A stretch of DNA of 64,000 nt, taken from NCBI RefSeq assembly GCF_034356035.1, contig NZ_CP136423.1, positions 2,542,001-2,606,000 of the forward strand. The letters run 5' to 3'. Source of the stretch: Blautia hydrogenotrophica DSM 10507. Its GTDB lineage: Bacteria > Bacillota > Clostridia > Lachnospirales > Lachnospiraceae. The translations under genes and the position numbers were made by a program. Within the stretch, counting starts at the first letter, position 1. The number at the start of each line of letters is the position of its first letter. A model generated the notes under the pieces. That model worked only from the letters and a program-made list of their open reading frames with translations. It was not told where the DNA came from and did no database searches. This document shows positions 181 through 60,685 of the stretch, in pieces.

Positions 181-194
181 CATTTCAAAGCAAA

Positions 195-1673
<1,479 letters not shown>

Positions 1674-1690
1674 TTAATGTTTTGTTCCCT

Positions 1691-1719: not shown

Positions 1720-2222
1720 TCCAAAAAAACTTTGGACGGAGCACTTTTTTTCATCATCTGAAGCATAGTTTCATCCGGCTCTAAGATCACTTTACAGGTC
1801 TGCTGGTCCAGCTTCACAATCATCGCATACCTGTTTCTTTCAGAATTTCCTGATGAATAGTCCAGCACCTTCAGCTTGCCATTGTGATTGTAATAGTCCA
1901 AACGATGAGAACGAATGGGGGCCATGATGTCCACATGATTCATTTCCAGAGTCTTTGCCTTTTTGCGCTTGCTCTTTGCCATAATTACATCCACGTCCAA
2001 CTCCCCATTCACATAGAGATATTCATATTCTATGTCTGTCTTGGGAAAGACAAAAAAGTACACCAGAACCCCTGCCACCACCGCAAATACCATAAACAGA
2101 GGCGACACCAGGACGACAAACAGCGCCAGTATCACCACAGCTGCAATGGAGCCTGCTTTTAACAAGGTATCCTTTCCGGTTTTTTCTTTCTTAACCAGAC
2201 ATTCCGCATATAAATCGCCCAT
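1716..2222 (-). CDS. Small conserved membrane protein (DUF6106-like)
   Basis: A 168-residue protein with a short cytosolic N-terminus, a strongly hydrophobic stretch at about residues 25-58 (two closely spaced membrane segments), then a soluble domain of about 110 residues rich in charged residues and strands. It resembles uncharacterised Lachnospiraceae membrane proteins that I recall under DUF6106, but I cannot verify the family. No catalytic motif is visible. It has its own promoter (2255-2283) and a good ribosome site (GGAGGAAAAAAG before ATG). Function unknown. Confidence 0.75.
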   Translation of the reverse strand: MGDLYAECLVKKEKTGKDTLLKAGSIAAVVILALFVVLVSPLFMVFAVVAGVLVYFFVFPKTDIEYEYLYVNGELDVDVIMAKSKRKKAKTLEMNHVDIMAPIRSHRLDYYNHNGKLKVLDYSSGNSERNRYAMIVKLDQQTCKVILEPDETMLQMMKKSAPSKVFLD

Positions 2223-2254
2223 CTTTTTTCCTCCAAATTTCCAAACTTTTATCT

Positions 2255-2283
2255 AGTGTAACACAAAATAGGGAATGTTGCAA
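2255..2283 (-). promoter_or_regulatory. Sigma-A promoter of the small membrane protein gene
   Basis: Minus strand TTGCAA (2278-2283), 17-bp spacer, TACACT (2255-2260), about 33 bp before the ATG at 2222. The -10 hexamer is identical to that of guaB. Confidence 0.6.
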
Positions 2284-2336
2284 AACAACATCCCCTAAAA
2301 ACCTGCTTTTCAGACCAGATCGTTTTTTCGTCTCTC

Positions 2337-4004
<1,668 letters not shown>

Positions 4005-4009
4005 TTAAT

Positions 4010-4294
4010 TTATTTGACAACCGCTAAAATATCACTCTGTCTGACAATAATATACTCCTCACCGTCAAGCTTCACTTCGGTTCCTGCATATTTAGAGTAA
4101 ATTACCTGATCGTCCACGGCTACTTCCATCTTTACTTCTTTTCCATCTACGACTCCACCCGGTCCTACAGCAACTACTGCCGCCTGCTGTGGTTTCTCCT
4201 GTGCCTGACCTGGCAGTACAATACCAGACTGAGTCTTCTCTTCTGCCTCTAACTGTTTCAATACTACTCTGTCACCCAATGGTACTAACTTCAT
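4010..4294 (-). CDS. groES: Co-chaperonin GroES (Cpn10)
   Basis: Lid subunit of the GroEL chamber; 94 residues, the usual size. It starts with [14 protein letters not shown], carries the mobile loop ([19 protein letters not shown]) that contacts GroEL, and ends with the conserved strand [16 protein letters not shown]. It is first in the operon, preceded by a good ribosome site, a CIRCE operator and a sigma-A promoter, so it is repressed by HrcA, whose gene is in this window (43719-44756). Confidence 0.98.
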
Positions 4295-4327
4295 ATCTAT
4301 TGCCTCCTTCTATTTTTCACTCTCTTT

Positions 4328-4354
4328 ATTAGCACTCATTTTGATCGAGTGCTA
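4328..4354 (-). promoter_or_regulatory. CIRCE operator (HrcA site) of groESL
   Basis: Perfect match to the CIRCE inverted repeat: TTAGCACTC (4328-4336), 9-bp spacer, GAGTGCTAA (4346-4354). It lies just downstream of the predicted transcription start of groESL, where HrcA binding would block transcription. Confidence 0.97.
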
Positions 4355-4365
4355 ATCACTGTCCT

Positions 4366-4395
4366 TATATTAGTGAATTCCACTGTTTTCTGCAA
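4366..4395 (-). promoter_or_regulatory. Sigma-A promoter of groESL
   Basis: Minus strand TTGCAG (4390-4395), 18-bp spacer, TAATAT (4366-4371), immediately upstream of the CIRCE. Spacing places the transcription start near the edge of the operator. Confidence 0.65.
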
Positions 4396-4506
4396 CCCTT
4401 TAGAACTTAGTATATTCCTATATTTCACCATATATTCTCATTAATTCTAACTTTTTCTTTTATTTTCTCATCTTTTATATTTTTATCATTTTGAAAGAGG
4501 ACAGGC

Positions 4507-4549
4507 TTATCGCGCAAACCCTCATACCGCCTATCAGCGGCACCTCCAA
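4507..4549 (+). repeat. Short dispersed intergenic repeat, copy 1
   Basis: A 43-nt block beginning TTATCGCGCAAACCCTCAT matches 25895-25937 at 38 of 43 positions, in the same orientation. It contains a small hairpin (CCGC...GCGG), and most differences fall in or near the stem and loop. The rest of the 4396-4610 gap shows no gene. Confidence 0.6.
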
Positions 4550-4610
4550 CGTCTGTGCGCCTCGGCAAGCAAGCTCACCAGCCGCTGTCCGGGAGCTTAT
4601 ACCGTAACAT

Positions 4611-4654
4611 AAAAACCTGTATATCTGATTCTCACCCAGATATACAGGTTTTTA
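4611..4654. terminator. Bidirectional terminator after codY
   Basis: AACCTGTATATCTG (4614-4627) and CAGATATACAGGTT (4637-4650) form a perfect 14-bp stem with a 9-nt loop. It is flanked by A5 and T5 runs, so it can work in both directions; it lies about 50 bp past the codY stop. Confidence 0.85.
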
Positions 4655-4700
4655 TACATTTATTTTGTCCTATAGGAGTATCTCTCTTTTTATTTATCAC

Positions 4701-5489
4701 TCAAGCTTTTTTGGCTCTCTGTGTCTTGATTTCTTCCAACTCATCAAAAATTACTTCGTTGAGAACCTTAATATATGTGCCCTTCATCCCTGAAGACCTG
4801 GACTCAATCACTCCCGCACTCTCAAATTTGCGCAGAGCATTCACAATAACAGATCTGGTGATGCCCACTCTGTCAGCAATTTTGCTGGCCACCAGTATTC
4901 CCTCATCTCCATCCAGCTCATCAAAAATATGGATGATCGCTTCCAGTTCCGAAAAGGACAGTGTGTTAAAGGCCGATTTTACTACTTGCTGTTTTCGATC
5001 TTCCTCTGCATTTTCCTCATGCACGGATCTCATCATCTCCAGCCCTACAACGGTTGTCCCATATTCGCTGACGATGATATCCTCAATGTCGTAAGATTTG
5101 TCATTTCGGTACATAAATACCGTTCCCAGGCGCTCTCCTGCAATATCAATAGGATTGATAATCCCTTGATATCTCTGAATATCTGAAGCCTCAAACCCCA
5201 ATGTCTGAAGATTTACATTTTCTTTCGTAGACAACACTTCCAGAAAACGTTCGTTTAACAAGTGGTCAATATAGCCACCTACCTTATCTTCAATCAATTC
5301 AGTTAACTCCTCTACTCCAGGACATAAACTGACACCCAATACTTTTCCCTTTTTGCTGATGACCAAAATATTAGAGCTTAACGTCTCCATCAGAACCTGA
5401 CAAATATCATTGAACACAACCTTACTAGAACTGCTGTTATGCAAAAGCTTATTGATCTTTCTGGTTTTGTCTAATAATTGAACGCTCAT
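4701..5489 (-). CDS. codY: GTP- and branched-chain-amino-acid-sensing repressor CodY
   Basis: Global nutrient-responsive repressor of Firmicutes. The 262-residue protein has the CodY N-terminal GAF domain (LLDKTRKINKLLHNSSS; then FNDICQVLMETLSSNILVISKKGKVLG) and a C-terminal winged helix-turn-helix with ASKIADRVGITRSVIVNALRKFESAGVIESRS. A strong ribosome site (GAAAGGAGG) precedes ATG. It lies downstream of topA but is separated from it by a terminator (5641-5678), so it is likely expressed on its own. Confidence 0.96.
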   Translation of the reverse strand: MSVQLLDKTRKINKLLHNSSSSKVVFNDICQVLMETLSSNILVISKKGKVLGVSLCPGVEELTELIEDKVGGYIDHLLNERFLEVLSTKENVNLQTLGFEASDIQRYQGIINPIDIAGERLGTVFMYRNDKSYDIEDIIVSEYGTTVVGLEMMRSVHEENAEEDRKQQVVKSAFNTLSFSELEAIIHIFDELDGDEGILVASKIADRVGITRSVIVNALRKFESAGVIESRSSGMKGTYIKVLNEVIFDELEEIKTQRAKKA

Positions 5490-5640
5490 TGGTGTCCTCC
5501 TTTCAAAATATTTTTTTGTCAGTTTTACTCCTTAATTTATACTACCATGGTATACATATTAAAATCAACCTATTTTTTTAGATTTTTTCATTTTTTTTTG
5601 CATTTTTAAATAGTTGATAGATTTCTCAGGATGAAAAATC

Positions 5641-5678
5641 AAAAAATGCTGTCTTTTTTTTGGAAGACAGCATTTTTT
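5641..5678. terminator. Bidirectional terminator between topA and codY
   Basis: AAAAAATGCTGTCTT (5641-5655) pairs with AAGACAGCATTTTTT (5664-5678) around an 8-nt loop, giving a stem with A and T runs at its base. It lies 10 bp past the topA stop. Confidence 0.85.
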
Positions 5679-5687
5679 AAGGAATTT

Positions 5688-7772
5688 TCACGCTTTTATC
5701 GGTTCTTCCTCCTGGATCTTTTTCACAAATCCACAAGTCTCATTACTACACACTAATTTATTGCCCTTCTCAACCATATAGCTTCCGCAATTTGGGCATT
5801 TCTCTTTGGAAGGTTTCTGCCAGGACATAAATTCACACTCTGGATTTGCCTCACATCCGTAATACTTACGTCCTTTCTTGGTCTTTTTCAGAACCACGTC
5901 TTTTCCACATATAGGACAGGGAACTCCAATCTTTTCATAATAAGGTTTTGTATTCCGGCACTCTGGAAAGCCAGGGCAGGCCAAAAAGCGTCCATGGGGT
6001 CCATATTTGATCACCATATTTCTTCCACATTCTTCACAGATCACATCTGTGACCTCATCTTCAATCTTCACCTGCTCCAATTCTTTTTCCGCAATCTCCA
6101 CATCTTTTTTCAAATCCGGATAGAAGTTTCTGACAACCGTCTTCCACTGTACTGTGCCCGCTTCTACACAGTCCAAAAGCCCCTCCATCGTCGCTGTAAA
6201 ATTTACATCCACAATGCTGGGAAATGCCTGTTTCATGATGTTATTCACCACTTCTCCCAACTCGGTCATATACAGATTCTTATTCTCTTTGGAGATATAC
6301 CGTCGTTTGATAATCGTCGTGATTGTTGGCGCATAGGTACTAGGCCTTCCAATCCCTAACTCTTCTAAGGTCTTAACCAAAGATGCTTCCGTATAATGTG
6401 CCGGCGGCTGAGTAAAGTGCTGTTCCGGCTGAAGCTTCAGCAGCTTCAACGGCATGCCTTTTGTCAGACTCTTAGCCAGAACATTCTCCTTTTTCTTTAC
6501 GTCTTCCTCCTGACTGTACACAGACTGGAAGCCTTGAAAGACAATTCTGGAGGCAGCAACCGTAAAATAGTACTTACCTGCTGATATCTTAACGGATGTC
6601 GTCTCATATTTTGCACTGCTCATACGACTGGCCGTAAAACGCTTCCAAATCAACTGATATAAACGATACTGGTCCCTCGAGAGTGATTCTTTTAAAGACA
6701 ACGGTGTCCTGGTAATATCTGTGGGCCGAATTGCCTCATGGGCATCCTGAATCTTCTGTTTGCTGCCAGAGGTTTTCGGGACTGCCGCCACATACTCTTT
6801 TCCATACTCACTGTCAATATATTCTCTGGCTGCTTTGTCCGCCTCTTCTGAAATTCGGGTTGAATCTGTACGCAGGTATGTGATAACGCCCACTGTGCCA
6901 TTTCCCTTGATGTCAATTCCTTCATACAGCTGTTGAGCCAAGCGCATGGTCTTTTGAGTAGAAAAATTCAGCGTCTTGGCCGCTTCCTGTTGCAATGTAC
7001 TGGTGGTAAACGGCAGCGGTGCATTTTTGTGCCGCTCCCCTTTTTTCACCTCTGCTACCTCGTAGGAACACTGTCCTAACTCAGACAGAATCTCATCCAT
7101 CTGTTCTTTATTCTGAATCTGTACCTTCTTCTTTGTACCATAAAACTTGGCTATCAGCGGTTTCTTCTCGCCTTCCACCTGGAACTCTCCTTCTAAATCC
7201 CAGTACTCTTCTGGGATGAAGGAATTGATTTCATCTTCCCGATCTCCGATAATTCTAAGAGCCACCGACTGTACTCTTCCTGCACTCAGACCTCTTTTTA
7301 CTTTCACCCATAGCAGAGGACTGATACTGTATCCCACCAGTCGGTCCAGCACCCTCCTGGCCTGCTGAGCCTCCACCAGATTCATATTCAGTCTGCGCGC
7401 CTGTTTTATGGAAGATTTTACCGCTGTTTTTGTGATCTCATTGAAGGTAATCCTCTGCATTTTTTCGTCGTCAACCTTTAAGGCTTGTGTCAAATGCCAG
7501 GATATCGCCTCCCCTTCCCGGTCAGGGTCCGTCGCCAGATAAATTTTATCCGCTTTTTTCGCTGCTTTTCTCAGCTTTGTCAGCAATTCCCCTTTTCCCC
7601 GGATCGTGATATATTTCAACTCAAAGTCATTTTCTGTATCAATTCCCATCTGACTTTTCGGTAGATCTCTTACATGCCCGTTAGAAGCCTGTACGTCATA
7701 ATTGCTTCCCAAAAATTTTTTAATCGTCTTAACTTTTGCGGGTGATTCCACAATCACCAAATATTTCGCCAT
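5688..7772 (-). CDS. topA: DNA topoisomerase I (type IA)
   Basis: Relaxes negative supercoils by single-strand passage. The 694-residue enzyme has an N-terminal Toprim domain (KYLVIVESPAKVKTIKKFLG; TDPDREGEAISWHL), the active-site tyrosine in GVITYLRTDSTRIS, and three C-terminal four-Cys zinc ribbons (CEECGRNMV, CPICGKDVV, CPNCGSYMV). I chose ATG at 7772 (MAKYLVIVESPAK) because AGGAGAGGGAAC precedes it; an in-frame ATG eight codons upstream lacks a ribosome site. It follows dprA by 89 bp, the usual Firmicute order comM-dprA-topA-codY. Confidence 0.97.
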   Translation of the reverse strand: MAKYLVIVESPAKVKTIKKFLGSNYDVQASNGHVRDLPKSQMGIDTENDFELKYITIRGKGELLTKLRKAAKKADKIYLATDPDREGEAISWHLTQALKVDDEKMQRITFNEITKTAVKSSIKQARRLNMNLVEAQQARRVLDRLVGYSISPLLWVKVKRGLSAGRVQSVALRIIGDREDEINSFIPEEYWDLEGEFQVEGEKKPLIAKFYGTKKKVQIQNKEQMDEILSELGQCSYEVAEVKKGERHKNAPLPFTTSTLQQEAAKTLNFSTQKTMRLAQQLYEGIDIKGNGTVGVITYLRTDSTRISEEADKAAREYIDSEYGKEYVAAVPKTSGSKQKIQDAHEAIRPTDITRTPLSLKESLSRDQYRLYQLIWKRFTASRMSSAKYETTSVKISAGKYYFTVAASRIVFQGFQSVYSQEEDVKKKENVLAKSLTKGMPLKLLKLQPEQHFTQPPAHYTEASLVKTLEELGIGRPSTYAPTITTIIKRRYISKENKNLYMTELGEVVNNIMKQAFPSIVDVNFTATMEGLLDCVEAGTVQWKTVVRNFYPDLKKDVEIAEKELEQVKIEDEVTDVICEECGRNMVIKYGPHGRFLACPGFPECRNTKPYYEKIGVPCPICGKDVVLKKTKKGRKYYGCEANPECEFMSWQKPSKEKCPNCGSYMVEKGNKLVCSNETCGFVKKIQEEEPIKA

Positions 7773-7861
7773 GTTCCCTCTCCTATATTGCACCACTTTG
7801 AAATGTTTGTGACTATTCAGCCATGCAGTTTGGATTCACAGTTCTACAATTTCTTAAAATT

Positions 7862-8752
7862 TTATAAAATTGTTTTCTTTACAAAAAAATTATGCCCAAT
7901 CCGCTCTACAAGGCCCTCCAATTCCAATTCCGTCAAACAATTTATAGTCTTTGTCACCGAAAAATGTGTATATTCCACAATCTCATGGAGATTTTTTGGT
8001 TGTAAATCCAAACCACTATACACCAAATTAAGATCTCTTGCAAGTCTTACACTATTTTTTTTTGCTGAATCCTCCCTTGTCTCTCTTTGAATCCCCCACT
8101 CTTCCAGTATTTTCTGAGGAGACCCGGCAACTCCTGCCCCCTGTTCCAAGAGCTGATGACACCCGCGGCTGAGACTAGAATCCACAGGCCCTGGCAGCGC
8201 ATAGACACTCTTTCCTTGTTCCATCGCAAAATCTACCGTGATCAGCGAACCGCTCTTTTCTCTCGCCTCTATAACCAGCACCACATCAGCCAATCCACTG
8301 ATAATCCGGTTTCTTGCCGGAAAATAACAGCCCAGCGGCATCGTTCCCGGCTTTTTCTCACTGATCAGGCCCCCTGACTGCCAGACTTGGCGATATAAGC
8401 TATCGTGCTGTTTTGGATAGCAGATATCTACACCACTCCCTAAAACCGCAAACGTAGGTGTCCCTCCTTCCAAAGCCCCACTGTGAGCTCTTCCATCAAT
8501 CCCTGCCGCCAAGCCGCTGATTACCTGCACTCCTGCCCTACTCATCTCCTGCGCATACAAAAATGCCTGACGCCTTCCATAAGCACTGCATGCCCTAGCT
8601 CCCACGATGGCAATGGTCGGACGATCGTCTCTTGGCAGCTCTCCTCTCACATAGAGCTTTTTAGGCATCCCTCTCAACTGCCGAAGACGCCTCGGATATT
8701 TCTCACTGCCACGCTCAATACATTCTATGTCAAGGTAATAAATTTCTTCCAT
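7862..8752 (-). CDS. dprA: DNA-processing protein DprA
   Basis: Loads RecA on incoming single-stranded DNA during natural transformation. The 296-residue protein has the Rossmann-like DprA core (PTIAIVGARACSAYGRRQA; SGLAAGIDGRAHSGALEGG; AVLGSGVDICYP; FPARNRIISGLADVVLVIEA) and a C-terminal winged-helix domain. It lacks most of the N-terminal SAM-like domain of longer homologues. It follows comM by 15 bp, so the two are cotranscribed. No other competence genes are in the window. Confidence 0.94.
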   Translation of the reverse strand: MEEIYYLDIECIERGSEKYPRRLRQLRGMPKKLYVRGELPRDDRPTIAIVGARACSAYGRRQAFLYAQEMSRAGVQVISGLAAGIDGRAHSGALEGGTPTFAVLGSGVDICYPKQHDSLYRQVWQSGGLISEKKPGTMPLGCYFPARNRIISGLADVVLVIEAREKSGSLITVDFAMEQGKSVYALPGPVDSSLSRGCHQLLEQGAGVAGSPQKILEEWGIQRETREDSAKKNSVRLARDLNLVYSGLDLQPKNLHEIVEYTHFSVTKTINCLTELELEGLVERIGHNFFVKKTIL

Positions 8753-8767
8753 AAAAATACTCCCCTC

Positions 8768-10291
8768 TCATCTCCAATATTTTTTGTCTAGACTGCGATA
8801 GCCGATCGCTTCTTCCAAATGTTCTCTCTGAATCATCCGCGATTCCTCTAAATCAGCGATTGTCCGCGCCACTTTTAAAATTCTGTGATAGGCCCTGGCA
8901 CTGATTTTGAGTCGGTCATATGCTTTCCCCAAAAGTTCTCTTCCCTGTGAGCTAACCTCACAGTACTGCTCTATCCCTCTCGGGGTCAGATCTGCGTTAA
9001 AGCATAGAGTTGTCCCCTCATATCGCTCTTTTTGAATCCTCACTGCCTTTTCCACCCTCTGACGAATCTGGGCAGACCCCTCTTGCTCGCTTGGACTAGA
9101 CAATGCCTGATAAGATATGGGAGCCGCCTCCGCACACAGATCAATTCTATCTAACAGCGGCTGGCTAATTCTTTTCAGATACCCACCGATCTCTGCCGGA
9201 CTGCAGGTACAGCGGTTCATATCCGGATAATACCCGCAAGGACATGGGTTCATCGCAGCCAGCAACAGAAAATCCGCTGGAAAGCAGTAAGTCCCGTGGA
9301 CTCTAGACAGCCTGATATATCCATCCTCCAGAGGCTGCCTTAGAATCTCTAAACTCCTCTTTGAAAACTCAGGCATTTCATCCAAAAAAAGCACTCCCCT
9401 GTGTGCCAAAGTCACCTCTCCTGGTTTTGGATTCTTTCCGCCGCCGGCCAATGCCTGCGCCGATGCTGTGTGGTGAGGGGCTCGAAAAGGTCTTCTCATC
9501 ATCATAGGAAACTCTTCTGACAAAAGTCCTGCTATGCTGTAAATCTGAGATACCTCCAAGCTTTCCGCCTCACTGAGAAACGGCATAATTCCCGGGACCC
9601 TCTTGGCCACCATAGACTTTCCTGTTCCTGGAGCTCCTATTAAAAGCAGATTGTGAAAGCCACTCGCTGCGATCTCCGCCGCCCTTTTTGCCCCTTCCTG
9701 TCCCTGCACTTCTCGAAAATCCGCAGAATATCTCTGTCTTTTCGTAATATCTCCATGAAACTTTCCTCTCTCCCCCTTTTGTTTTCCCAACAAAACGTCT
9801 CTCATCTGAGCCAATGATCTTACTCCAATCACTCGTATATCTGGAACCATAGAACCTTCCTGTAGGTTTTCAAAAGGAAGAATACAGGTATGGCATCCCA
9901 ACTCTCTTGCCTTGCGAACAACGGGCAACACACCGATCACAGGATTACATTTCCCGCTCAGACTGACCTCGCCTATGATAAGGATTCCCTGAAGCGACTC
10001 ACAGGGAATCCTACCGGCTGCTGACAAAATCGCAGCCGCTATGGGAAGGTCATACCCTGCCCCCTCTTTTCGTATATCCGCTGGTGCTAAATTGACTGTT
10101 ATCCTCTTAGGCGGCAGTGAAAGCCCTGTGTTTTTCATTGCTGTTCTCACTCTCTCCTGAGCTTCTTTCACCTGAGAGGACACATATCCAACCATGGAAA
10201 AGGAAGGCAGACCGTCGCTTAAATCTGCTTCTACTTGAATCGGACAGATCTCCATTCCCTGAATGGATGCCGACAACACGCTACTGAACAT
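8768..10291 (-). CDS. comM: YifB/ComM-family Mg-chelatase-like AAA+ ATPase
   Basis: 507-residue AAA+ protein related to ComM, a branch-migration helicase in natural transformation. It has an N-terminal Lon-like ChlI domain, Walker A (LLIGAPGTGKSMVAKRVPG), Walker B (GVLFLDEMPEF), a Cys cluster (MNPCPCGYYPDMNRCTC) and the C-terminal Mg-chelatase domain. The start is ATG at 10291 (MFSSVLSASIQG), preceded by GAAAGGAGAG. The reading frame stays open 39 codons further upstream, but that stretch is encoded by a dispersed intergenic repeat and is not protein-like. Confidence 0.93.
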   Translation of the reverse strand: MFSSVLSASIQGMEICPIQVEADLSDGLPSFSMVGYVSSQVKEAQERVRTAMKNTGLSLPPKRITVNLAPADIRKEGAGYDLPIAAAILSAAGRIPCESLQGILIIGEVSLSGKCNPVIGVLPVVRKARELGCHTCILPFENLQEGSMVPDIRVIGVRSLAQMRDVLLGKQKGERGKFHGDITKRQRYSADFREVQGQEGAKRAAEIAASGFHNLLLIGAPGTGKSMVAKRVPGIMPFLSEAESLEVSQIYSIAGLLSEEFPMMMRRPFRAPHHTASAQALAGGGKNPKPGEVTLAHRGVLFLDEMPEFSKRSLEILRQPLEDGYIRLSRVHGTYCFPADFLLLAAMNPCPCGYYPDMNRCTCSPAEIGGYLKRISQPLLDRIDLCAEAAPISYQALSSPSEQEGSAQIRQRVEKAVRIQKERYEGTTLCFNADLTPRGIEQYCEVSSQGRELLGKAYDRLKISARAYHRILKVARTIADLEESRMIQREHLEEAIGYRSLDKKYWR

Positions 10292-51510: not shown

Positions 51511-52134
51511 TCAGACTGAATCAAGGTATATTCTCTTCTCGTTGCCCGTATACCTGTTCTGCGTAACCAGCACCAGATCACCGTCTGAGGAACGGTTCGC
51601 TTTCTCTGAAACAGATACAATATTATATGTATACACCTCTCCCCAGATATCTGTAAATCTCACCTCCATGCCTTCATTCAGCACGGATATGCTTCGGAAC
51701 AGGCCACCGCGGAGCGAATCTTTGATGACAAGGTTCCCGCTCTCCGCTGATCCCGATTCGCACTTAGGCATATATTTTCCGTCCTCATACTCTGATTGTA
51801 CTGGCCAGGCCTCTTCAATGAGCGGAATCTCGAGTATTCCGATGCACGAAATCTCCTTGACCTCCAGATATGCCCCCTCCTGATTCGTACTTCCTTCCTG
51901 CACAAAGCCTTTCGTCTGCTCGGGAAGAAGAGAAATAAGCCTCTCAAGAATCTCATCGCACTGCTTATGCGCCTGATTTTCCTGGTATTTAGAATTACAC
52001 ATCAGAGCAGAGGCCAACAAAAGAACAACAGCTCCTGCATAAAGGAAAATCCGACCGGAAGCCCAGCCAGATCCTCTGTTATCTTTTCTGTCTCTACTTT
52101 CTACATCTTTATCTTTTATGAACCTGCTTTGCAT
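51511..52134 (-). CDS. Sortase-fold protein lacking catalytic His and Cys
   Basis: 207 residues: one membrane helix at about 28-46, then a sortase-like domain (IGILEIPLIEEAWPVQSE; SGNLVIKDSLRGGLFRSI; VRFTDIWGEVYTYNIV; DLVLVTQNRYTGNEKRIYL). At the usual GH position it has Asp139-Ser140, and at the TLxTC position Gln192 replaces the catalytic Cys; only an Arg (201) remains. The order of strands is kept, and the frame is intact, so it looks like a pseudoenzyme rather than a broken gene. It overlaps the minor pilin gene by 26 bp at the end of the pilus operon. Confidence 0.78.
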   Translation of the reverse strand: MQSRFIKDKDVESRDRKDNRGSGWASGRIFLYAGAVVLLLASALMCNSKYQENQAHKQCDEILERLISLLPEQTKGFVQEGSTNQEGAYLEVKEISCIGILEIPLIEEAWPVQSEYEDGKYMPKCESGSAESGNLVIKDSLRGGLFRSISVLNEGMEVRFTDIWGEVYTYNIVSVSEKANRSSDGDLVLVTQNRYTGNEKRIYLDSV

Positions 52135-53053
52135 CTCTCTTCCTTCTCCAAATCGTCAGTCCCGCGATAATAAGTATGAGTCCGCTGAGGAAAAGAAGAA
52201 TAGCGGTATATAACAGAGCCGTCCCATCTCCTGTCTTCGGAGGTTCTTTGCCCTCTTCCCTGTATGTGTTGGAGATCATAAAGGCAGTCTGGTTTTTCTC
52301 GACCATGACCGTATACCCTTCCGGTATATTCCGCTCTACAACCTGCCATACACTTCCGTCGTCCTCTGTTTTCCACACGTACGACCAGTCGTTCTCCTCC
52401 GACAGAGTCTGAACACTGTGCCGCTCTCCGTCCTTTAAAATTTCAACAGTAATATCCTTTGGTCTGACTGAGCCGTCCCCATCGTTGCTCCAGTACTTTA
52501 CAATCCTATACTCCTTCTTCTCGCCGGTCGGTATAAATGTCTCGTATTTTGTCTCTACTTCAGTCTCATATACCCACTCTCCAGCTTCGTTCATAGAAGG
52601 AACTGTCACAAGCACAGGTACCGGATCATATCGAACGCCTTCATGAATAATACTTTCTCCGTCAATCAGATACACGCCCTTTGCAAGACCGCTGAAATAC
52701 AGATCTCCATTCATATCTGTACGCCCTGAATGATCCGCTTCGATTCTGTCTGCTTTCACATAGGAGGCCAGAGTCTGCGCTGCCGCTGCCATACTTTCAG
52801 TATCAAGAGCATTTAAATCCATCTGGAACTCCTTAAATTCACCTGTAAGCTCAAACTCCCAACTGTCGGTGATATCGCCCACGCGGTATACCCAGAACTG
52901 CGCCTCCTGCACAGGAGTATATTTCAGATGTATTTCTCCCGTCTGCTCCGCTTCCCCGGCACAGACCGGCTGTGTTGTAAATACCATACAGGACATAAGA
53001 ATTGCCGCCAGAATGCCTCCTCTTTTGTATAACACTTTTACTCTATTTATCAT
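52109..53053 (-). CDS. Minor pilin / Cna_B-domain cell-wall protein
   Basis: 314 residues: signal peptide (GGILAAILMSCMVFTTQPVCA), a pilin-type domain (YTPVQEAQFWVYRVGDITD), a Cna_B-type domain (RIVKYWSNDGDGSVRPKDIT; WQVVERNIPEGYTVMVEKN; FMISNTYRE), and a C-terminal sorting signal PPKTGD, membrane helix (LYTAILLFLSGLILIIAG) and basic tail (RRKRDAK). The signal is xPxTG rather than LPxTG. It lies 3 bp after the class C sortase gene; as pilus base or cell-wall anchor is the likely role. Confidence 0.85.
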   Translation of the reverse strand: MINRVKVLYKRGGILAAILMSCMVFTTQPVCAGEAEQTGEIHLKYTPVQEAQFWVYRVGDITDSWEFELTGEFKEFQMDLNALDTESMAAAAQTLASYVKADRIEADHSGRTDMNGDLYFSGLAKGVYLIDGESIIHEGVRYDPVPVLVTVPSMNEAGEWVYETEVETKYETFIPTGEKKEYRIVKYWSNDGDGSVRPKDITVEILKDGERHSVQTLSEENDWSYVWKTEDDGSVWQVVERNIPEGYTVMVEKNQTAFMISNTYREEGKEPPKTGDGTALLYTAILLFLSGLILIIAGLTIWRRKRDAKQVHKR

Positions 53054-53056
53054 ACA

Positions 53057-53887
53057 CTACCGCCCTCCTTTTCTTTCATATATCCTCCGTACCAGAAACC
53101 AGAGAATCCCCCCTGCTAAAAGGATAACTACAGCCACTGCCAGCACTACAATAACTATATCAATCTGAACCGCATCGGCCGGAATCCGTTGGGCAGATAC
53201 AGCATTGGCGATACGATACCCCCGTACTAGAAGTCTATGACTGTTGATTCCGTAGGGCGTACAGGTCAGAAGAGTACAGTAATCTTTTCCCTCCTCGATC
53301 TCCAGATCCTCAACCTCCCGGGGCTCTACAATTCGTATCTGATCCACCTGATATGTAAGTGTCCTGTCGAGAACATGGATGGAGAAGGTGTCCCCCTCTT
53401 CCATCTCATCGAGATTGCTGAAAAGCTTTGCCGAGGGCAGCCCCCTGTGTCCTGTCAGAACACAGTGAGTCCCGCTTCCGCCGACCGGAAGAGAGCTTCC
53501 CTCCAGATGTCCCACAGCGATCTGCAACACGGTATCCTCTGTCCCATGATATATTGGAAGGGACATTTTAAGTTTCGGTATCTCTACATACCCCATAATG
53601 CCTGTCCCTGTCACATCAAGAAGAGAATTATATTCTTCCTCTTCTGCTTCTGTCAGACGATACCTGTTCTCCTTTTTCTCCAGGAGTCTGCTGTTATACG
53701 CCTCCGCATCCTCCATCATGCTGCCATACTCCGCCGCATCCATCTGAGATACCCCCTCAGTGTAGGCGGCAATAGCTCTGGATTGATGATATGAATTCCA
53801 ATAATCACTGACTGTCGGATACAGCAGTAAGGAAAGTCCGGTAAACATTACAAGAAGCAGTAAAACAGTTGTCAATTTCTTCCTCAT
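53057..53887 (-). CDS. srtC: Class C (pilus) sortase
   Basis: 276 residues: N-terminal membrane helix (LTTVLLLLVMFTGLSLLLYP), sortase core with His147 in LTGHRGLPSAKLF, Cys209 in TLLTCTPYGINSHRLLVRG and Arg218, and a C-terminal membrane helix (IDIVIVVLAVAVVILLAGGI), the class C layout. It cross-links pilin subunits by transpeptidation. It sits between the major and minor pilin genes. Confidence 0.95.
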   Translation of the reverse strand: MRKKLTTVLLLLVMFTGLSLLLYPTVSDYWNSYHQSRAIAAYTEGVSQMDAAEYGSMMEDAEAYNSRLLEKKENRYRLTEAEEEEYNSLLDVTGTGIMGYVEIPKLKMSLPIYHGTEDTVLQIAVGHLEGSSLPVGGSGTHCVLTGHRGLPSAKLFSNLDEMEEGDTFSIHVLDRTLTYQVDQIRIVEPREVEDLEIEEGKDYCTLLTCTPYGINSHRLLVRGYRIANAVSAQRIPADAVQIDIVIVVLAVAVVILLAGGILWFLVRRIYERKGGR

Positions 53888-53969: not shown

Positions 53970-55562
53970 TTATTTTTTACCTAAACATTTTCTCAGCACG
54001 AGAACAGTGCCCGCACCTAGAACGATAGCTGCGCCCAGAACATAGAATACAGTTGTACCCATGCCGCCTGTTGACGGAAGTATGGAGCCTTTAGTATTCC
54101 GAATTTCTATACTGACTAATCCCTCTTCAATATTTCCCGTCATCCGTTCATTATTCACGTCGACACTAATCTCCTTTAACGCATTGCTCGCAACACCTGC
54201 CCAGTTCTGGCCATTAACTGTAACTGCAGTAATTTGGACAGGAATTGGACCAACAATTTTATTATATCCGTCAGGCGCCTGTATTTCTTCCAGATAATAT
54301 GTACCATCATCTAGACCTGTTATATGAAAGCTCCCTTCTGAATCTGACGTAAAGATTGTGCCCTCGTTTTCCTCACCTGTCCAGCCGGTTACAATTCCGC
54401 TCTCAGCTTTGACATATTCGCCCTCGCCACGATACAATTTAAATGTCGCATTTTCCAGACCTGCCTTATCTTCAGCGTCAATTTTTGTGACAGTTAACAT
54501 ATAAGTAAATACAATGACCTTGTCTTCTGGAGTCTGTCCTGTGGAATCCTCCCCGCCAGGGTTAGGATTATTGGAAAACTCAAGATAAGCATCAGTCGGG
54601 TTACCCGGCAGACCAACCTCTGCGTTCTCCTTAAGTGTAGCATCATATTCTACAATAATGTATTTATCCGAGTCGATTCCAGGAATATCTTTTAAATTGT
54701 CAAAAGAAAGCGTATACCCGTTTTCTGTAGGAGTCAGATTCCATAAACTTCCATCTATCTCCGCCTTATCTGTTCCGCTTTTATCAGAAGCAATGTAAAC
54801 CTTTACTGAATCTCCAATCAATGTAAACTTATCTGTAAGATTATCATGAAATGCATAATAATACTCATCATATGCATCCATTGCCTCTTCATCTGGTATT
54901 GTACCAATCAGTTTGTAAGGTACAGTGTCGCCGATATTCCAGTCAGCCACATCGTTGTATCCTTCACCATAACCACCGTCTTTCGCATATTTGTCATCTT
55001 CTCGAACCTTTTTCTCCATAGCCGGCACGTCAGATTTTGGAGTAACCTTTACATCGCTTACTACCTTAAGGATAAAATCTGTGTAAGCATCTGTTTTATC
55101 CACACTATCATCTTTATCTTTTACCAGATAATATCCGGCTCCAAAAACTGATATGACATATAAACCATTTTCATCTTCTGAAGTCCCAGCCACATCGGTA
55201 AGATATTTTTCTGCAATATCTGCAAATTTTTCTGCATTTGCCGAAAACTGATCCAATACTTTCGCCACATCAGCGGCACTCTCACAATCTTCATATTCAT
55301 CTAATTTGTCTTTAAGTTCTGTCAGCAATGCGTCTGCTTGGCTTTTTACCGCTGATCCCCATTCAATATTGGAGAGAGTCGTTCCATCCTCTGACAGATC
55401 TCCCGTAAATACTTGATAAGCCTCATAGACGTGGTCAGCCTTGGCATTAGTAATAGTAATCGTATAGCTTTGCTCATTATTTTGGGCAAATGCTGTGAGA
55501 TTCATGGCAAATGTCATAATTACTACTAACAGAAGACTGACAATTTTCTTCATTCTCTTCAT
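53970..55562 (-). CDS. Major pilin (SpaA-type isopeptide-forming)
   Basis: 530 residues: signal peptide (IVSLLLVVIMTFAMNLTAFA), an N-terminal pilin domain (TITNAKADHVYEAYQVFTG), an isopeptide-forming fimbrial domain (IGDTVPYKLIGTIPDEEAM), a SpaA/Cna_B domain (LENATFKLYRGEG; TYYLEEIQAPDGYN with the E-box glutamate) and the sorting signal LPSTG, a membrane helix and RKCLGKK. It is the backbone that the class C sortase would polymerise. 82 bp upstream of srtC. Confidence 0.93.
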   Translation of the reverse strand: MKRMKKIVSLLLVVIMTFAMNLTAFAQNNEQSYTITITNAKADHVYEAYQVFTGDLSEDGTTLSNIEWGSAVKSQADALLTELKDKLDEYEDCESAADVAKVLDQFSANAEKFADIAEKYLTDVAGTSEDENGLYVISVFGAGYYLVKDKDDSVDKTDAYTDFILKVVSDVKVTPKSDVPAMEKKVREDDKYAKDGGYGEGYNDVADWNIGDTVPYKLIGTIPDEEAMDAYDEYYYAFHDNLTDKFTLIGDSVKVYIASDKSGTDKAEIDGSLWNLTPTENGYTLSFDNLKDIPGIDSDKYIIVEYDATLKENAEVGLPGNPTDAYLEFSNNPNPGGEDSTGQTPEDKVIVFTYMLTVTKIDAEDKAGLENATFKLYRGEGEYVKAESGIVTGWTGEENEGTIFTSDSEGSFHITGLDDGTYYLEEIQAPDGYNKIVGPIPVQITAVTVNGQNWAGVASNALKEISVDVNNERMTGNIEEGLVSIEIRNTKGSILPSTGGMGTTVFYVLGAAIVLGAGTVLVLRKCLGKK

Positions 55563-55565
55563 TTT

Positions 55566-58397
55566 TTATCCCCTCCATTTTTTATTTTTTCTATACAAAA
55601 CACAGGCGCCGCCGCAGACGAACACTATCCCTGCAATTGTATACAAACCTGTTCCTGTGGAACCCGTTTCCGGAAGCCGATATTGAATCCTCTGATCCTC
55701 AACTTCAATCGGTACTGCTACATCTGTACCGCCGTCAACAGGTCCTTCTGTATCACCGCAATTTATAACTTTAAGCATTTTATCTCCCTCGCGGTAAAGA
55801 CCAGATTTGGTTGCTGTATCAATCAAACAATCTACCTCTTCTCCGTCGGAATCGTCATAATAGAACCAATATCTTGTATCGCTGAGCTGATAATGGTCCG
55901 GCGCTTTTGTCTCCTGAATATAATAGAGCTGGTTACTGCTCAGATAAAATCCATTTGACGGATCCCCTTTATAGGCTATACTTCCCTTCTCATCTGTGGT
56001 ATCCTCCGTGAGTAACTCGCCGTTTAATGAAAATATACCGTATGTCGCCCCAGGCACCAGATTGCCGAAATCCGTATCCTTTTTGACAACCGTAAGCATA
56101 TATTGCATTGACTCAAATATGGTATCTCCAATCGTTCCTTCTGAACTGTCTTCAAATTCCTTTCCAAACGCCTCTACGGCAACTTTATTTTCATAGTTCC
56201 CGCCTTTGCTGCCGGACTCTGCTGTCACATAATATGTAATGACATATTCGAATGCCCCGGGATGCAAAATCTGTATTTTTACAACATGAAGCTCCTCACT
56301 CACTTCCACCACATAATCACTGCCGTAATTCAGCACCTGTTCTATGCCGTCCGCCGCTGTCGCCGTAACCTCAACGGAGCCTTTTCTGTAATAAATGTTA
56401 TCGCTCATCTTATCTGTAACAACAAGCTTTTCTTGTCTTGATAAATCGATTTTTCCCGAATTGACTATGATTTTAAACTGTCCGCTGCCGCTCATATTCG
56501 ATTTTTCTACTATATATGGAATTTCATAGCGAATGCGTCTACTATCCTCATCCTTTTCATCTTTTCTCAAATATACATTATTTTCACCTTTATCTCCGGG
56601 AGATAAAATCATCTCCTCATTTTCTTCAATATACTTTATCGTTATCGTTGTCTCTCCCGTCAGGTACCAGTCTGTGCACCAGCCTTCGGGAATCCCTTCA
56701 ACAGCCTTATCGCTGCACCCCTCATGCGAATCTGTTCTTGATACAAAGTACAGCTCTAATTTCATTTTCTCATCATACCAATAATATGCCATTTTATCTG
56801 CCACAGCAGCATCCTGCGCAGACGACAAAACTTTTTCAGTATTGCCATTTTTTAATATAATCACCGCTTTGCTGAGATCGGGGTAGTAATCCTTAATCCA
56901 CCTTCCCTGGTCCTGAATACTCCACGATGCATACTGATTTTCATATCCGGGAATTGTCGCTTTTATAGTCCATTCCATTCTGCCTTCAGCATTAATCTTA
57001 CCGGATTTCTCCACTTTGCCTTTCTGCCCCGGCTCCGGTTTTGACACAATATCTATATCCGGGCTGACCAGTTCTCCATCCTCGTTCTTATCGAAGCTGA
57101 CTGAAACACTGAAAATCAACTTGAGCCGAATCTTCGTGTTGTCATACATCTGCAGAACAACTTTGTTGCCTTCCTCCTCAATAATCAGCCTGCCTATAAT
57201 TGTGCCATCGTTTGCCGCTATATTCTCATTTTTTATCGCCGAAGCTGTAATTCCTTCAGGCATAGTATACACATATCTTCCGGCATCCGGAATCCCCCCC
57301 GGAGCATACATCTTGAAATCAAATGTATACCCCTCACCTTCATATATCTGATACTTTTCACCGCCTTTTTCTACTTCATTTCCCTCCGTGTCAACAAGCT
57401 TTATCTCAAATACAGGCTCCTCTTTTCCCATCTTACGTCCAAGAACGTACTCTTCCAGGTCAATATCGCCCGTCTCTTTCTCTTCAGACTTGTTCTCTTC
57501 CTGTTTTACAGAATCATCCGCACTGCTCTGCTCTTTCTGTGCGCCGTCGCTTGTAGGCTCGTCCACATTATCCTTAGAGCTCTCCGTTCCGCCGGAAGAT
57601 GGCTCTTTATCCTCTCCGGGATTCTCTGCGTCGCCGGACGGTATCGCCTCATCTCCTGAAGAGGGCTCTACAGTTCCATCTGTATTCTCTTTATCATCAG
57701 ATGGAACTGCCTCCTCTTGGGAAGGAGTGTTCGTCTCTTCGTCAGTACCTTTGTAAATATTCTCAGCTTTACTCAGGTTTCCGTATCCCGCCGGTTGTAC
57801 CTGTAATGTCGCCACGCTGCCGTCCACATCTCCTGCAACGACAGTGACTGCTCCGTATGCAGCGTCAGTCACAACTCCCACCTGGTCACCCTGAAGAAAT
57901 GCAATATCTCCCGTTTGCGGGCTGTAGCTATCTGAATTCTCATATATTCCTTTTTCTTCAAATGCCTCTTTAAAATCCGTGGCAGCATCCTCCTGCGGAA
58001 CAGCACTCTCCGGTATCTGGGCGTAATACAGGCAGAATGACAGGAACATTCCGTTCCATTCTCCGCACGGATCACCGTACCAGTTTCCGTAATATGTATA
58101 TCCATCGTCCTCAGTGTCAGCCTCTGTTCCCGTACTCTCTGAGTACCCGATCTGGGACTCTGCCACAGCTGTGAGATCCTCCGCCCACACGCCTGAAAGA
58201 CTCTGCGGCAGCGCTCTCTCCCACTCAGCCGTATTTGCTCCCGCTGCCTGACCACTCTCCATCGTCGCTGCCGGAAGAATAAGCATATATCTTGTTCCCA
58301 ACATCACAACAGCAGACAGACAGATTATGATTCGATGCCACAGTGAGCTTCTTTTCCATTCTTTTATGAAGTCTCTTTCCTGTTTGTTTCGTTTCAC
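55566..58397 (-). CDS. Large LPETG tip adhesin with degenerate CHAP-like domain
   Basis: 943 residues. Basic N-terminus and membrane helix (RIIICLSAVVMLGTRYMLIL). Residues about 95-205 resemble a CHAP peptidase (YGNWYGDPCGEWNGMFLSFC; TGDIAFLQGDQVGVVTDA), but the catalytic Cys (WCAMF in active relatives) is Asn115 and the His is Gln172. An acidic Ser/Pro/Glu linker (about 220-315) follows, then adhesin domains, a SpaA domain (GNLVPGATYGIFSLNGE; YYIQETKAPDHYQLS) and LPETG, helix, RKNKKWRG. GTG at 58397 follows GGGAGG; the upstream TTG at 58448 overlaps lepB. Confidence 0.88.
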   Translation of the reverse strand: MKRNKQERDFIKEWKRSSLWHRIIICLSAVVMLGTRYMLILPAATMESGQAAGANTAEWERALPQSLSGVWAEDLTAVAESQIGYSESTGTEADTEDDGYTYYGNWYGDPCGEWNGMFLSFCLYYAQIPESAVPQEDAATDFKEAFEEKGIYENSDSYSPQTGDIAFLQGDQVGVVTDAAYGAVTVVAGDVDGSVATLQVQPAGYGNLSKAENIYKGTDEETNTPSQEEAVPSDDKENTDGTVEPSSGDEAIPSGDAENPGEDKEPSSGGTESSKDNVDEPTSDGAQKEQSSADDSVKQEENKSEEKETGDIDLEEYVLGRKMGKEEPVFEIKLVDTEGNEVEKGGEKYQIYEGEGYTFDFKMYAPGGIPDAGRYVYTMPEGITASAIKNENIAANDGTIIGRLIIEEEGNKVVLQMYDNTKIRLKLIFSVSVSFDKNEDGELVSPDIDIVSKPEPGQKGKVEKSGKINAEGRMEWTIKATIPGYENQYASWSIQDQGRWIKDYYPDLSKAVIILKNGNTEKVLSSAQDAAVADKMAYYWYDEKMKLELYFVSRTDSHEGCSDKAVEGIPEGWCTDWYLTGETTITIKYIEENEEMILSPGDKGENNVYLRKDEKDEDSRRIRYEIPYIVEKSNMSGSGQFKIIVNSGKIDLSRQEKLVVTDKMSDNIYYRKGSVEVTATAADGIEQVLNYGSDYVVEVSEELHVVKIQILHPGAFEYVITYYVTAESGSKGGNYENKVAVEAFGKEFEDSSEGTIGDTIFESMQYMLTVVKKDTDFGNLVPGATYGIFSLNGELLTEDTTDEKGSIAYKGDPSNGFYLSSNQLYYIQETKAPDHYQLSDTRYWFYYDDSDGEEVDCLIDTATKSGLYREGDKMLKVINCGDTEGPVDGGTDVAVPIEVEDQRIQYRLPETGSTGTGLYTIAGIVFVCGGACVLYRKNKKWRG

Positions 58398-58431
58398 CTG
58401 GTATTCCCTCCCTTTCACTTTCTCTCTGCTT

Positions 58432-59013
58432 CTATTCAACCGCGCCAACTTCTGTCAATGGCCAGATCCGGAATACAATTTTTCCCACAATCTGTTCCTC
58501 AGAAACACAACCGACTGCTCTGCTGCGGCTGTCCAGAGAAGTGCCTCTGTTGTCGCCGCAAACAAAAATCCTGCCCTCCGGAACCTGATAAGGCATTTCG
58601 ATATCACATTCCCCAAGTGCCCCCTCCTTCAGATAAGGCTCATCCAGCAGTTCATTGTTAACGTATATATAGCCGTCCTCGGCAACATTCACCCAGTCTC
58701 CCGTAAAAGCGATAACCCGCTTTACAAGGACTTTGTTGTTATAGTAAAAAGAGATAATGTCACCCTGTTCAAAGTCCGAACTCTTTAATGCTATAACAAT
58801 GTTTCCCGGTTTCAGCGTTGGTGACATGGAACTTCCGTAAATTCTCAAAACCGGCACAAGCAGAACCGCTATCAGCACTGCAGCAGCCGCTGTAATCAGG
58901 ATAAACGCCGTATTTCGAATAGTTCTTCTAAAACGCCGTCGCTTTTTTTCTCTTTTAAGTTCTGTCTCCAACTGAAAAATCTCAGGAATCACCAATGGCT
59001 CTTTTCTTTTCAT
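58432..59013 (-). CDS. lepB: Signal peptidase I (pilus-operon type)
   Basis: 193 residues: cytosolic N-terminus, membrane helix (AFILITAAAAVLIAVLLVPV), catalytic Ser62 in YGSSMSPTL, Lys98 in VLVKRVIAFTGD, and box D/E motifs (IFVCGDNRGTSLDSRSRAVG). A dedicated peptidase is common in pilus loci, where it processes pilin precursors. Its ATG overlaps the stop of the upstream ORF (ATGA), so translation is coupled. Confidence 0.94.
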   Translation of the reverse strand: MKRKEPLVIPEIFQLETELKREKKRRRFRRTIRNTAFILITAAAAVLIAVLLVPVLRIYGSSMSPTLKPGNIVIALKSSDFEQGDIISFYYNNKVLVKRVIAFTGDWVNVAEDGYIYVNNELLDEPYLKEGALGECDIEMPYQVPEGRIFVCGDNRGTSLDSRSRAVGCVSEEQIVGKIVFRIWPLTEVGAVE

Positions 59014-59276
59014 CGCCCCACCTCTTCTTCAAACTCCTCTGCACATGCCCCGATATTTTCCAGGTATTGAATAGCTGCCTGCTGCGCAGCCCCATAAAAT
59101 CTGTTCAGCTTCAGAGCAACCTCCGCAATAGAACCAGCTTCATCTATCAATATCCTTCTGTTTTCCAGCTACCTCTTGGCCAACCACTCCTTCAGTTCCT
59201 CGGCCTCTCTTCTCTGCTCCAAAAGCATTTCCAGAAGTTCCTTGCGGCTAAGTCTGTGCATCTCTCTTTCCGTCAT
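59010..59276 (-). pseudogene. Small coiled-coil ORF with an in-frame amber codon
   Basis: Frame open from ATG 59276 (MTEREMHRLSRKELLEMLLE) to TGA overlapping the lepB start, interrupted only by TAG at 59171-59169 (codon 36). Before it: QRREAEELKEWLAKR; after it: LENRRILIDEAGSIAEVALK and NRFYGAAQQAAIQYLENIGA. The two halves together resemble a small helical protein often seen next to sortase/signal-peptidase genes in Clostridia (recalled, not checked). Ribosome site is weak. Either a nonsense mutation, read-through, or a sequence error. Confidence 0.7.
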
Positions 59277-59417: not shown

Positions 59418-59441
59418 ACCACATAATCAACATTATGTGGT
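59418..59441. repeat. Left inverted repeat of the invertible segment
   Basis: 24 bp beginning ACCACATAATC, matching the reverse complement of 59821-59844 at 23 of 24 positions. It is itself a near-perfect palindrome (CCACATAAT, 4 bp, ATTATGTGG), the form expected for a tyrosine-recombinase core site. Confidence 0.9.
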
Positions 59442-59605
59442 AGATTACGATTTCCTGAAATTTTAGAATAATGTTGAAACAAACGTTCTGAATTGCGAGA
59501 AATTATTTCTGGCACTGAGATTATGCATCTGCGGCAGGCAACATTTCAATTAATACTTTCTGCCGTAACGAAAGCTTTGCACAGTATATCTTCGTATATT
59601 TAACA

Positions 59606-59636
59606 GAAAAAAAGTTTTGCGCCCTGAAAAAAGCGC
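59606..59636 (-). terminator. Possible weak terminator inside the switch (minus strand)
   Basis: TGCGC (59617-59621) and GCGCA (59632-59636) with a T7 run 4-11 nt further along the minus strand (59612-59606). The stem is only 5 bp. In the present orientation it would oppose read-through from the recombinase gene toward the pilus operon. Confidence 0.4.
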
Positions 59637-59644
59637 AGAATACC

Positions 59645-59678
59645 AGGCCTTTCCGTTTTTCAAAAAACAGTAAGGCCT
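59645..59678. repeat. Long hairpin inside the switch
   Basis: AGGCCTT (59645-59651) and AAGGCCT (59672-59678) enclose CCGTTTTT and AAAAACAG, which also pair with one mismatch, so almost the whole 34 nt is palindromic. Confidence 0.75.
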
Positions 59679-59762
59679 ATTTCTGGTGTTGTTTATTTCT
59701 TTACAAAAAAATAGAATTCAATCGGATTGTTTTAGATAGATTATTTTTTCATATTTTAGAAC

Positions 59763-59791
59763 TTGACCGTAGCGTCTTTTGATAATATAAT
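59763..59791 (+). promoter_or_regulatory. Strong sigma-A promoter inside the switch
   Basis: TTGACC (59763-59768), exactly 17 bp, TATAAT (59786-59791), the strongest promoter match in the window. It currently points right, toward the 3' end of the recombinase gene on the opposite strand. Confidence 0.85.
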
Positions 59792-59820
59792 AATATAAAG
59801 TATGTAATAGCGTTTGAGTA

Positions 59821-59844
59821 ACTACATAATGTTGATTATGTGGT
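59821..59844. repeat. Right inverted repeat of the invertible segment
   Basis: 24 bp beginning ACTACATAATG; one mismatch to the reverse complement of 59418-59441. Its right end lies 1 bp from the recombinase gene's stop. Confidence 0.9.
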
Positions 59845-59845
59845 A

Positions 59846-60685
59846 TCATATAACAAGTCCCAGGGCATCCATTCTCTGCCTATGTTCCACCCCGGATGAT
59901 TTTATATAAATTCTCGTAGTATTGATACTGCTGTGTCCTAAAACGTCCGCTAGCTTTGCAATGTCCTTGTCAGCAGCATAAAAGCATCTTGCGAATAAAT
60001 GTCTCAGGTTGTGGGGAAATACTTTTTTCGTCTCCACACCTGCTTTCCCGCACAGCCGCTTCATCATCTTCCATATATTAGATCGGTCTAGCGGTCTGCC
60101 TGTCCGCGTCACAAACACAGCGCCTGATGAAATCTTCTGTGATCCCATATACCTTTTTAAAACTTTTCTCAGTTTTCCGGGTATCAGTACGGTTCTTGTC
60201 TTACCCTTCATGTGGATCAGTGCCTCCCCGTTACAGACAGCCTCTGCCGTGATAAAGCTCAATTCAGAGACTCGGATGCCTGTTCCGCAGATAGTCTGAA
60301 GTAGAAGCGCCAGCTTCTCCTGGCCAAGACTGCGCGCCGTGTTCACCATACATAGATATTCATTCTTAGAAAGCTCCTTTTCTTTTGCACAGTATGTTTT
60401 TTTCTGAATTCTAAGCTGCTTCACCTTCAGCTCTGTCGCTCCGGAATAATTTAAAAAACCGTTGATTGCGGCAAGCTTCACATTTACGCTTGCCGGAAGA
60501 TACTCTTTCCTGAGCTTTTCTTTATACTGGATTACACTCTCTTTGCAAAATCCATGTTTCTTTATATACATCAAAAAGCTCTGTATATCTCTCTGATACT
60601 GTTTTATTGTCGCTAGGCTCCTCTCCTGTCTCTTCAAATAGTCCAAATAAGAATCTAATTGAACACTTGTAACTGTATCACCCAT
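59846..60685 (-). CDS. Tyrosine recombinase (probable DNA invertase of the pilus switch)
   Basis: 279 residues: an N-terminal SAM-like core-binding domain (LDYLKRQERSLATIKQYQRD) and a catalytic domain with the full active set: Arg138 (GTGIRVSEL), His225 and Arg228 (PHNLRHLFA), His251 (LGHSSINTTR), Tyr260 (RIYIKSSG). Ribosome site AGGAGGTG. Its stop touches the right inverted repeat, and it is transcribed toward the switch. No attachment site, tRNA or excisionase suggests a prophage, so local inversion is the best-supported role. Confidence 0.92.
   Translation of the reverse strand: MGDTVTSVQLDSYLDYLKRQERSLATIKQYQRDIQSFLMYIKKHGFCKESVIQYKEKLRKEYLPASVNVKLAAINGFLNYSGATELKVKQLRIQKKTYCAKEKELSKNEYLCMVNTARSLGQEKLALLLQTICGTGIRVSELSFITAEAVCNGEALIHMKGKTRTVLIPGKLRKVLKRYMGSQKISSGAVFVTRTGRPLDRSNIWKMMKRLCGKAGVETKKVFPHNLRHLFARCFYAADKDIAKLADVLGHSSINTTRIYIKSSGVEHRQRMDALGLVI

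Follow-up and report, generated by a model that had tools for sequence, protein, structure and literature searches.

A predicted invertible promoter, linked to a tyrosine recombinase, ahead of a sortase-dependent pilus operon in Blautia hydrogenotrophica

Positions 59418–59844 of the window, the 64-kb stretch of Blautia hydrogenotrophica DSM 10507 DNA analysed here, very probably form the recombinase-linked invertible promoter of a pilus operon, which would have been sequenced in its OFF orientation and would be ON after inversion. The reading of this region as a switch is well supported, the support coming from comparison with its relatives rather than from the window copy itself. In the mechanism that we propose, the adjacent tyrosine recombinase would bind both near-palindromic sites, and strand exchange in their matching central bases would invert the 379-bp segment between them. 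In the sequenced orientation the promoter would fire toward the 3′ end of the recombinase gene, leaving the pilus operon without its main promoter (OFF); after inversion, transcription would start at about position 59464 on the minus strand, cross the left site and, past a leader of some 450 nt, reach the pilus operon (ON). A single strain would then contain both cells with pili and cells without them, and the pili of this strain would be phase-variable.

Predicted recombination sites and the recombinase gene

The switch region comprises the following features.

59418..59441, + strand: predicted left recombination site, near-palindrome ACCACATAAT-CAAC-ATTATGTGGT
59442..59820, strand not applicable: predicted invertible segment of 379 bp, the longest among the 51 entries compared (144–379)
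59520..59549, − strand: weaker promoter-like site TTGAAA-18-CATAAT, facing the pilus genes in the present orientation (10/12)
59763..59791, + strand: promoter TTGACC-17-TATAAT (TTGACC 59763–59768, 17 nt, TATAAT 59786–59791), 11/12, its position fitting the habit of the family
59821..59844, − strand: predicted right recombination site, inverted copy (23/24)
59846..60685, − strand: tyrosine recombinase of 279 aa, candidate invertase; Phage_integrase 94.4 bits and Phage_int_SAM_1 28.4 bits, both above cut-off

The two repeat arms are 24 nt long, identical at 23 of 24 positions and 379 nt apart, as the initial annotation had described. No other pair of this kind occurs in the window (at least 22 of 24 matches, arms 50–1000 nt apart), and in 40 first-order Markov control sequences the best arm match of each reached only 18–21 of 24. 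Both arms take the form of a near-palindrome, ACCACATAAT-N4-ATTATGTGGT, with an asymmetric centre, which is the shape of a tyrosine-recombinase site, and the single mismatch between them falls outside the central 8 nt. A search of the whole 3.6-Mb genome with the site pattern, at no more than three mismatches, returned the two arms only, each with 0 mismatches to the pattern, a result to be read beside that of the backwards control pattern, which at the same threshold also gave two matches per strand. A 24-nt piece, compared with IMG/VR, matched no contig.

The recombinase gene does adjoin the repeats, as had been claimed; it reads toward the segment, and its 3′ end lies one base from the right arm. 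The frame is whole and contains all the expected domains. Residues 6–266 align to XerA-type structures, and R, HxxR, H and Y, the residues expected in the tyrosine recombinase family, are visible in that alignment. Identity with the housekeeping recombinase XerC/XerD, acting at dif, was considered and rejected, the NCBIfam scores being 113.3 bits for XerD (cut-off 329.6) and 112.8 bits for XerC (cut-off 335.15); the protein also falls below the cut-off of the XerA model. The genome has 13 Phage_integrase matches in total, so another recombinase could act at these sites.

Promoters and phase of the window copy

In the sequenced orientation the TTGACC-17-TATAAT promoter faces the 3′ end of the recombinase gene and points away from the pilus genes, in agreement with the initial annotation. 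Promoter-like sites in the switch region are not in excess (five found, compared with 4.9 ± 2.5 in shuffles), and because their number is at chance level, the weight given to the window promoter derives from the position of the promoter in relatives. The earlier description of the copy as captured OFF is upheld by promoter position, whereas the score rule leaves the window ambiguous, with best scores of 13.4 toward the recombinase and 12.3 toward the pilus genes. Measured from a reference point near the segment end, the stronger site lies at 41 nt and the weaker at 90 nt, which makes OFF the better reading of the sequenced orientation. Some transcription of the pilus genes in the present phase is possible. 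From the left arm to position 58950, no minus-strand promoter-like site was listed.

A terminator within the segment, insulating the pilus genes in the OFF phase, was dropped as a candidate, because the best terminator-like site of the window folds no better than shuffles (z 0.09). Between 58950 and 60850 there are four terminator-like sites, compared with 1.0 ± 1.1 in shuffles, and the left arm is itself one of these. Over the 49 oriented segments of the 51 compared entries that were used for this count, terminator matches numbered 18 for the promoter strand and 19 for the opposite strand.

The pilus operon

On the far side of the switch, and on the same strand as the recombinase gene, lie the following genes.

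59010..59276, − strand: short first gene, interrupted by an in-frame stop after about 35 codons; it overlaps at its end with the start of the signal peptidase gene (coordinates counted by hand)
58432..59013, − strand: signal peptidase I (sigpep_I_bact 123.7 bits, cut-off 47)
55566..58448, − strand: LPXTG surface protein of 960 aa with a SpaA domain, likely adhesin (SpaA 37.3, cut-off 23.1; LPXTG_anchor 25.2, cut-off 15.9)
53970..55562, − strand: major pilin (SpaH/EbpB family 106.3 bits, cut-off 95)
53057..53887, − strand: class C (pilin) sortase (287.1 bits, cut-off 160)
52109..53053, − strand: probable minor pilin (Cna_B 38.2 bits and GramPos_pilinD1 25.1 bits, over cut-off)
51511..52134, − strand: last gene of the operon, 207 aa, no Pfam or NCBIfam family

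Domain matches thus confirm the signal peptidase, likely adhesin, pilin and sortase genes that had been read downstream of the switch, and the major pilin and class C sortase, both over curated cut-offs, together with the LPXTG anchors, identify a sortase-dependent pilus operon. The broken short gene between the switch and the signal peptidase gene had gone unmentioned, as had the weaker promoter-like site that faces the pilus genes; in L092, L094 and L096, open frames that match the second piece of the broken gene stand ahead of signal peptidase. No relative of the 207-aa protein was found in Pfam, NCBIfam or the PDB (best PDB E value 0.64). Class C sortase relatives occur once more in the same genome, at C1:2804664-2806371, with identities of 44% and 42%; the second of these matches contains stop codons.

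The switch in relatives

Relatives of the recombinase came from a genome contig collection (38 loci) and from the other 63 genomes of the genus (12 matches in 8 genomes, E ≤ 1e-30). In 33 of the 38 collection relatives and 9 of the 12 genus relatives a site pair starts just past the recombinase; of the five collection relatives without one, four lie on contigs that end 2–212 nt past the recombinase match. The exact site pattern was also searched for in 299 family genomes, 11 of which, including that of the window, had a match, and the control pattern gave no match in any row; the 14 loci taken from this search were chosen by motif and so give no independent support for the motif. One of the 14, L075, has a lone exact-pattern site and no recombinase relative in the stretch examined. 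The family of this recombinase is large: in the protein search all of the scored candidates, at least 7999, were recombinase relatives, and among the matches listed the nearest non-self relative was 67% identical.

Site pairs were looked for in 73 locus entries, being present in 63 and absent from 10. For L020, L027, L029, L071 and L012, all without a pair, the contigs end 33–224 nt past the recombinase match with the left site visible; the pair of L012 was found in a separate repeat search, and the contig of L027 stops at the last base of its left site. Contig breaks at the sites would be the effect expected of mixed orientations on assembly. The contig of L053 ends inside the recombinase gene, L054 and L017 also lack a pair, and L013/L064 (one locus, 35% identity) has no standard site pair but a different inverted repeat. 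Twelve of the 63 entries were dropped as re-fetches or near-identical copies (L006, L007, L008, L009, L011, L014, L015, L016, L077, L045, L051 and L055), giving a compared set of 51, which includes the window and both L031 and L032. An arm match of 22 to 23 of 24 is common among the relatives.

When viral contigs were scanned with the recombinase, in a search restricted by pattern, no relative was confirmed. The sole contig of the viral collection with the site pattern, L080 (IMG/VR, 1–9070), starts with a recombinase gene and a site pair, after which come genes that are phage-like as judged by eye from the frames; it is perhaps a prophage beside a host switch.

The central 8 nt are identical between the arms in 49 of the 51 entries, compared with 0.9% of between-locus comparisons, and the entries have 38 different 4-nt cores; the choice of pairs rewarded matching cores, but there were few candidate sites per locus. 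Because recombining sites must keep one core while loci drift apart, we read cores that match within a pair and differ between loci as the mark of recombination within each pair.

Natural inversion was observed between two genomes. In L031 (Candidatus Mediterraneibacter avicola) and L032 (Ca. M. intestinipullorum), whose recombinases are 60% identical to that of the window, the segment is identical at 229 of 229 positions only when inverted, and at 80 of 229 otherwise; the two are the same locus, with 4967 of 5000 positions identical in the left flank and 395 of 397 in the right. Two related loci with different cores, L042 and L046, likewise have opposite orientations over 160 nt at 91%, while near-identical copies in the same orientation occur in L042/L045 and in L049/L051/L055. 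The initial annotation had proposed looking for the segment reversed in related genomes: the homologous L031/L032 switch supplies such a case, whereas the DNA of the window segment, compared with 64 genomes of the genus, matched in 1 of 64, its own genome only. L049, L051 and L055 are three contigs of one assembled genome, with near-identical switches and downstream genes and slightly different flanks, and are either duplicated loci or mixed strains.

The promoters of the 51 entries differ from shuffled controls. The best score per segment averages 14.4 (10.3 ± 0.2 in 20 shuffle rounds); 86% of promoters lie 30–70 nt from the reference point used above, compared with 20% in shuffles, and a 17-nt spacer is found in 90%, compared with 36%. 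By promoter direction 40 entries are OFF, 8 are ON and 3, the window among them, are ambiguous, a ratio that does not represent 48 independent draws, the entries being partly related.

Cargo of the switches and pilus loci without one

The next gene past the switch (at least 120 aa, at most 2 kb away) is co-oriented with the recombinase in 46 of the 51 entries, opposed in 3 and absent in 2. Full sortase-pilus operons, with major pilin and class C sortases over cut-off, stand behind the switches of L023 and L063, that of L023 also having a signal peptidase, and in L040 a sortase-domain gene is followed by a 2724-aa frame that reaches the contig end. HA-domain helicases make up 8 of the 30 large cargo proteins scanned; an HA-domain ResIII-type helicase is the first cargo gene in L038, L042, L043, L044, L046, L047, L049 and L052, and since sugar-nucleotide or sugar-transferase genes follow it in L042 and L046, the helicase-headed switches may control phase-variable polysaccharide clusters. 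Rrf2 regulators account for 5 of the 22 small first genes. The pilus is thus one of several cargoes. In L022 (13414–17561), a Cas13d gene scoring 1118.7 bits (cut-off 150) lies together with a cas2 gene about 2 kb past the switch, other frames standing between the switch and these two.

Seven other genomes of the genus have a relative of the pilin, and in the six loci examined there is no site of at least 15/18 and no recombinase relative in the stretch examined. Signal peptidase precedes the pilin in five of the six, and class C sortase relatives follow it in four; the L092 stretch stops at the pilin gene, and L097 has a different arrangement. The pilus, therefore, does not need the switch, which in this lineage seems to have been added to a pilus operon of standard type.

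Alternative explanations

Against our main reading stand the direction of the window promoter, ambiguous by score, the weaker promoter facing the pilus genes, the broken first gene and the six switchless pilin loci. Two of these points would suit a copy that is locked or decayed, while its relatives do switch: it would either fail to invert, or the pili would be off by other means, or the weaker minus-strand promoter would sustain a low level of pilus expression. Besides that promoter and the in-frame stop in the first gene of the operon, the arm mismatch and a segment longer than any other of the 51 point in this direction, but the recombinase frame is whole with all its expected domains, the mismatch spares the central 8 nt, and arms matching at 22 to 23 of 24 positions are commonplace in relatives, so that we consider a locked copy improbable.

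It is very unlikely that the repeats serve mainly to regulate the recombinase, by antisense transcription or as binding sites, and that the pilus operon uses a promoter of its own that has escaped recognition. The promoter does run antisense into the recombinase gene in the present orientation, and the switchless pilin loci of the genus must have another promoter; this explanation nevertheless has to accommodate a segment found in opposite orientations between the matching flanks of L031 and L032, a next gene that shares the orientation of the recombinase in 46 of 51 entries, and the stretch from the left arm to 58950, for which no minus-strand promoter-like site was listed. Many tyrosine recombinases are integrases, and both the recombinase and the sites are missing at the six pilin loci of the genus, as they would be if the repeats were the ends of an integrated mobile element. 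That explanation, the least probable of those weighed here, is close to refuted: the repeats are inverted rather than direct, they enclose a short promoter-bearing stretch, and the homologous segment occurs in both orientations between unchanged flanks in L031 and L032.

The invertible promoter of the pilus operon is thus the reading that we prefer. If the window copy flips, the sortase pili of this bacterium would differ between cells of one clone, with consequences for adhesion and for the reading of genomic pilus genes as an expressed trait. Because recombinase, site and promoter follow one pattern, a site beside a member of this family of recombinases allows phase-variable operons to be predicted from assemblies, together with the phase that they are in. 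We also put forward, tentatively and as rather unlikely in its full form, that the module is a portable switch cassette of Clostridia, consisting of the recombinase, two private core-matched sites and a promoter, and placed ahead of pilus operons, glycan clusters headed by HA-domain helicases, and other genes. Owing to the fixed geometry of such a cassette, transcription from the OFF-phase promoter would enter the recombinase gene in antisense; this would lower the invertase and stabilize the OFF phase, and would in this way explain the excess of OFF (40) over ON (8) among the 51 entries; the antisense feedback is testable in many natural copies.

Comparison with known systems

One known counterpart is fimS of Escherichia coli, an invertible promoter ahead of fimbrial genes with the linked tyrosine recombinases FimB and FimE; it resembles the window in this layout and differs in having two recombinases, chaperone-usher fimbriae and other repeats. 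E. coli fimS is mentioned in PMC11868660 and PMC2654543. The mechanism is already known in kind, and is met here with many relatives; among the matches listed from the open-licence literature, a weak basis for a negative, there was no report of an invertible promoter before a sortase-pilus operon of Lachnospiraceae.

In gut bacteria, ON/OFF variation of sortase-dependent pili has been described for Bifidobacterium breve, as in our reading of the window, but there the switch works by replication slippage, with no DNA inversion (PMC9187656). Small inversions are frequent in Clostridia, to which 14 of the 15 positive Firmicutes samples belong, and these inversions, like the Cdi switches of C. difficile, are short invertible segments controlling adjacent genes, as the window segment is predicted to be; unlike it, their reported targets are mainly signalling and chemotaxis, and the main text of that report does not use the word sortase (PMC5903667). 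In hCom2, inverton group 139 of gut Clostridia, associated with tyrosine recombinase group 35, has 33 invertons, 32 of them in Clostridia and nearly all with a nearby tyrosine recombinase (PMC11892184). Likened to the window switch by class and by linkage to a recombinase, this group and the window switch may well belong to one family; neither sortase nor pili is mentioned by name in the main text of the report (PMC11892184).

The invertible promoter that is linked to the recombinase SZO08550 and lies ahead of the LPXTG protein SZO08560 in Streptococcus zooepidemicus was reported with five inverted reads and RT-qPCR (PMC2654543). As in the window, the promoter lies between inverted repeats, the recombinase is adjacent and the target is an LPXTG surface protein; unlike in the window, the repeats are 10 bp long, the segment is about 115 bp and the target is a single surface protein with no pilus operon (PMC2654543). 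In the other orientation of the streptococcal segment, transcripts were reported on the reverse strand of the recombinase gene, into which the window promoter likewise points antisense (PMC2654543).
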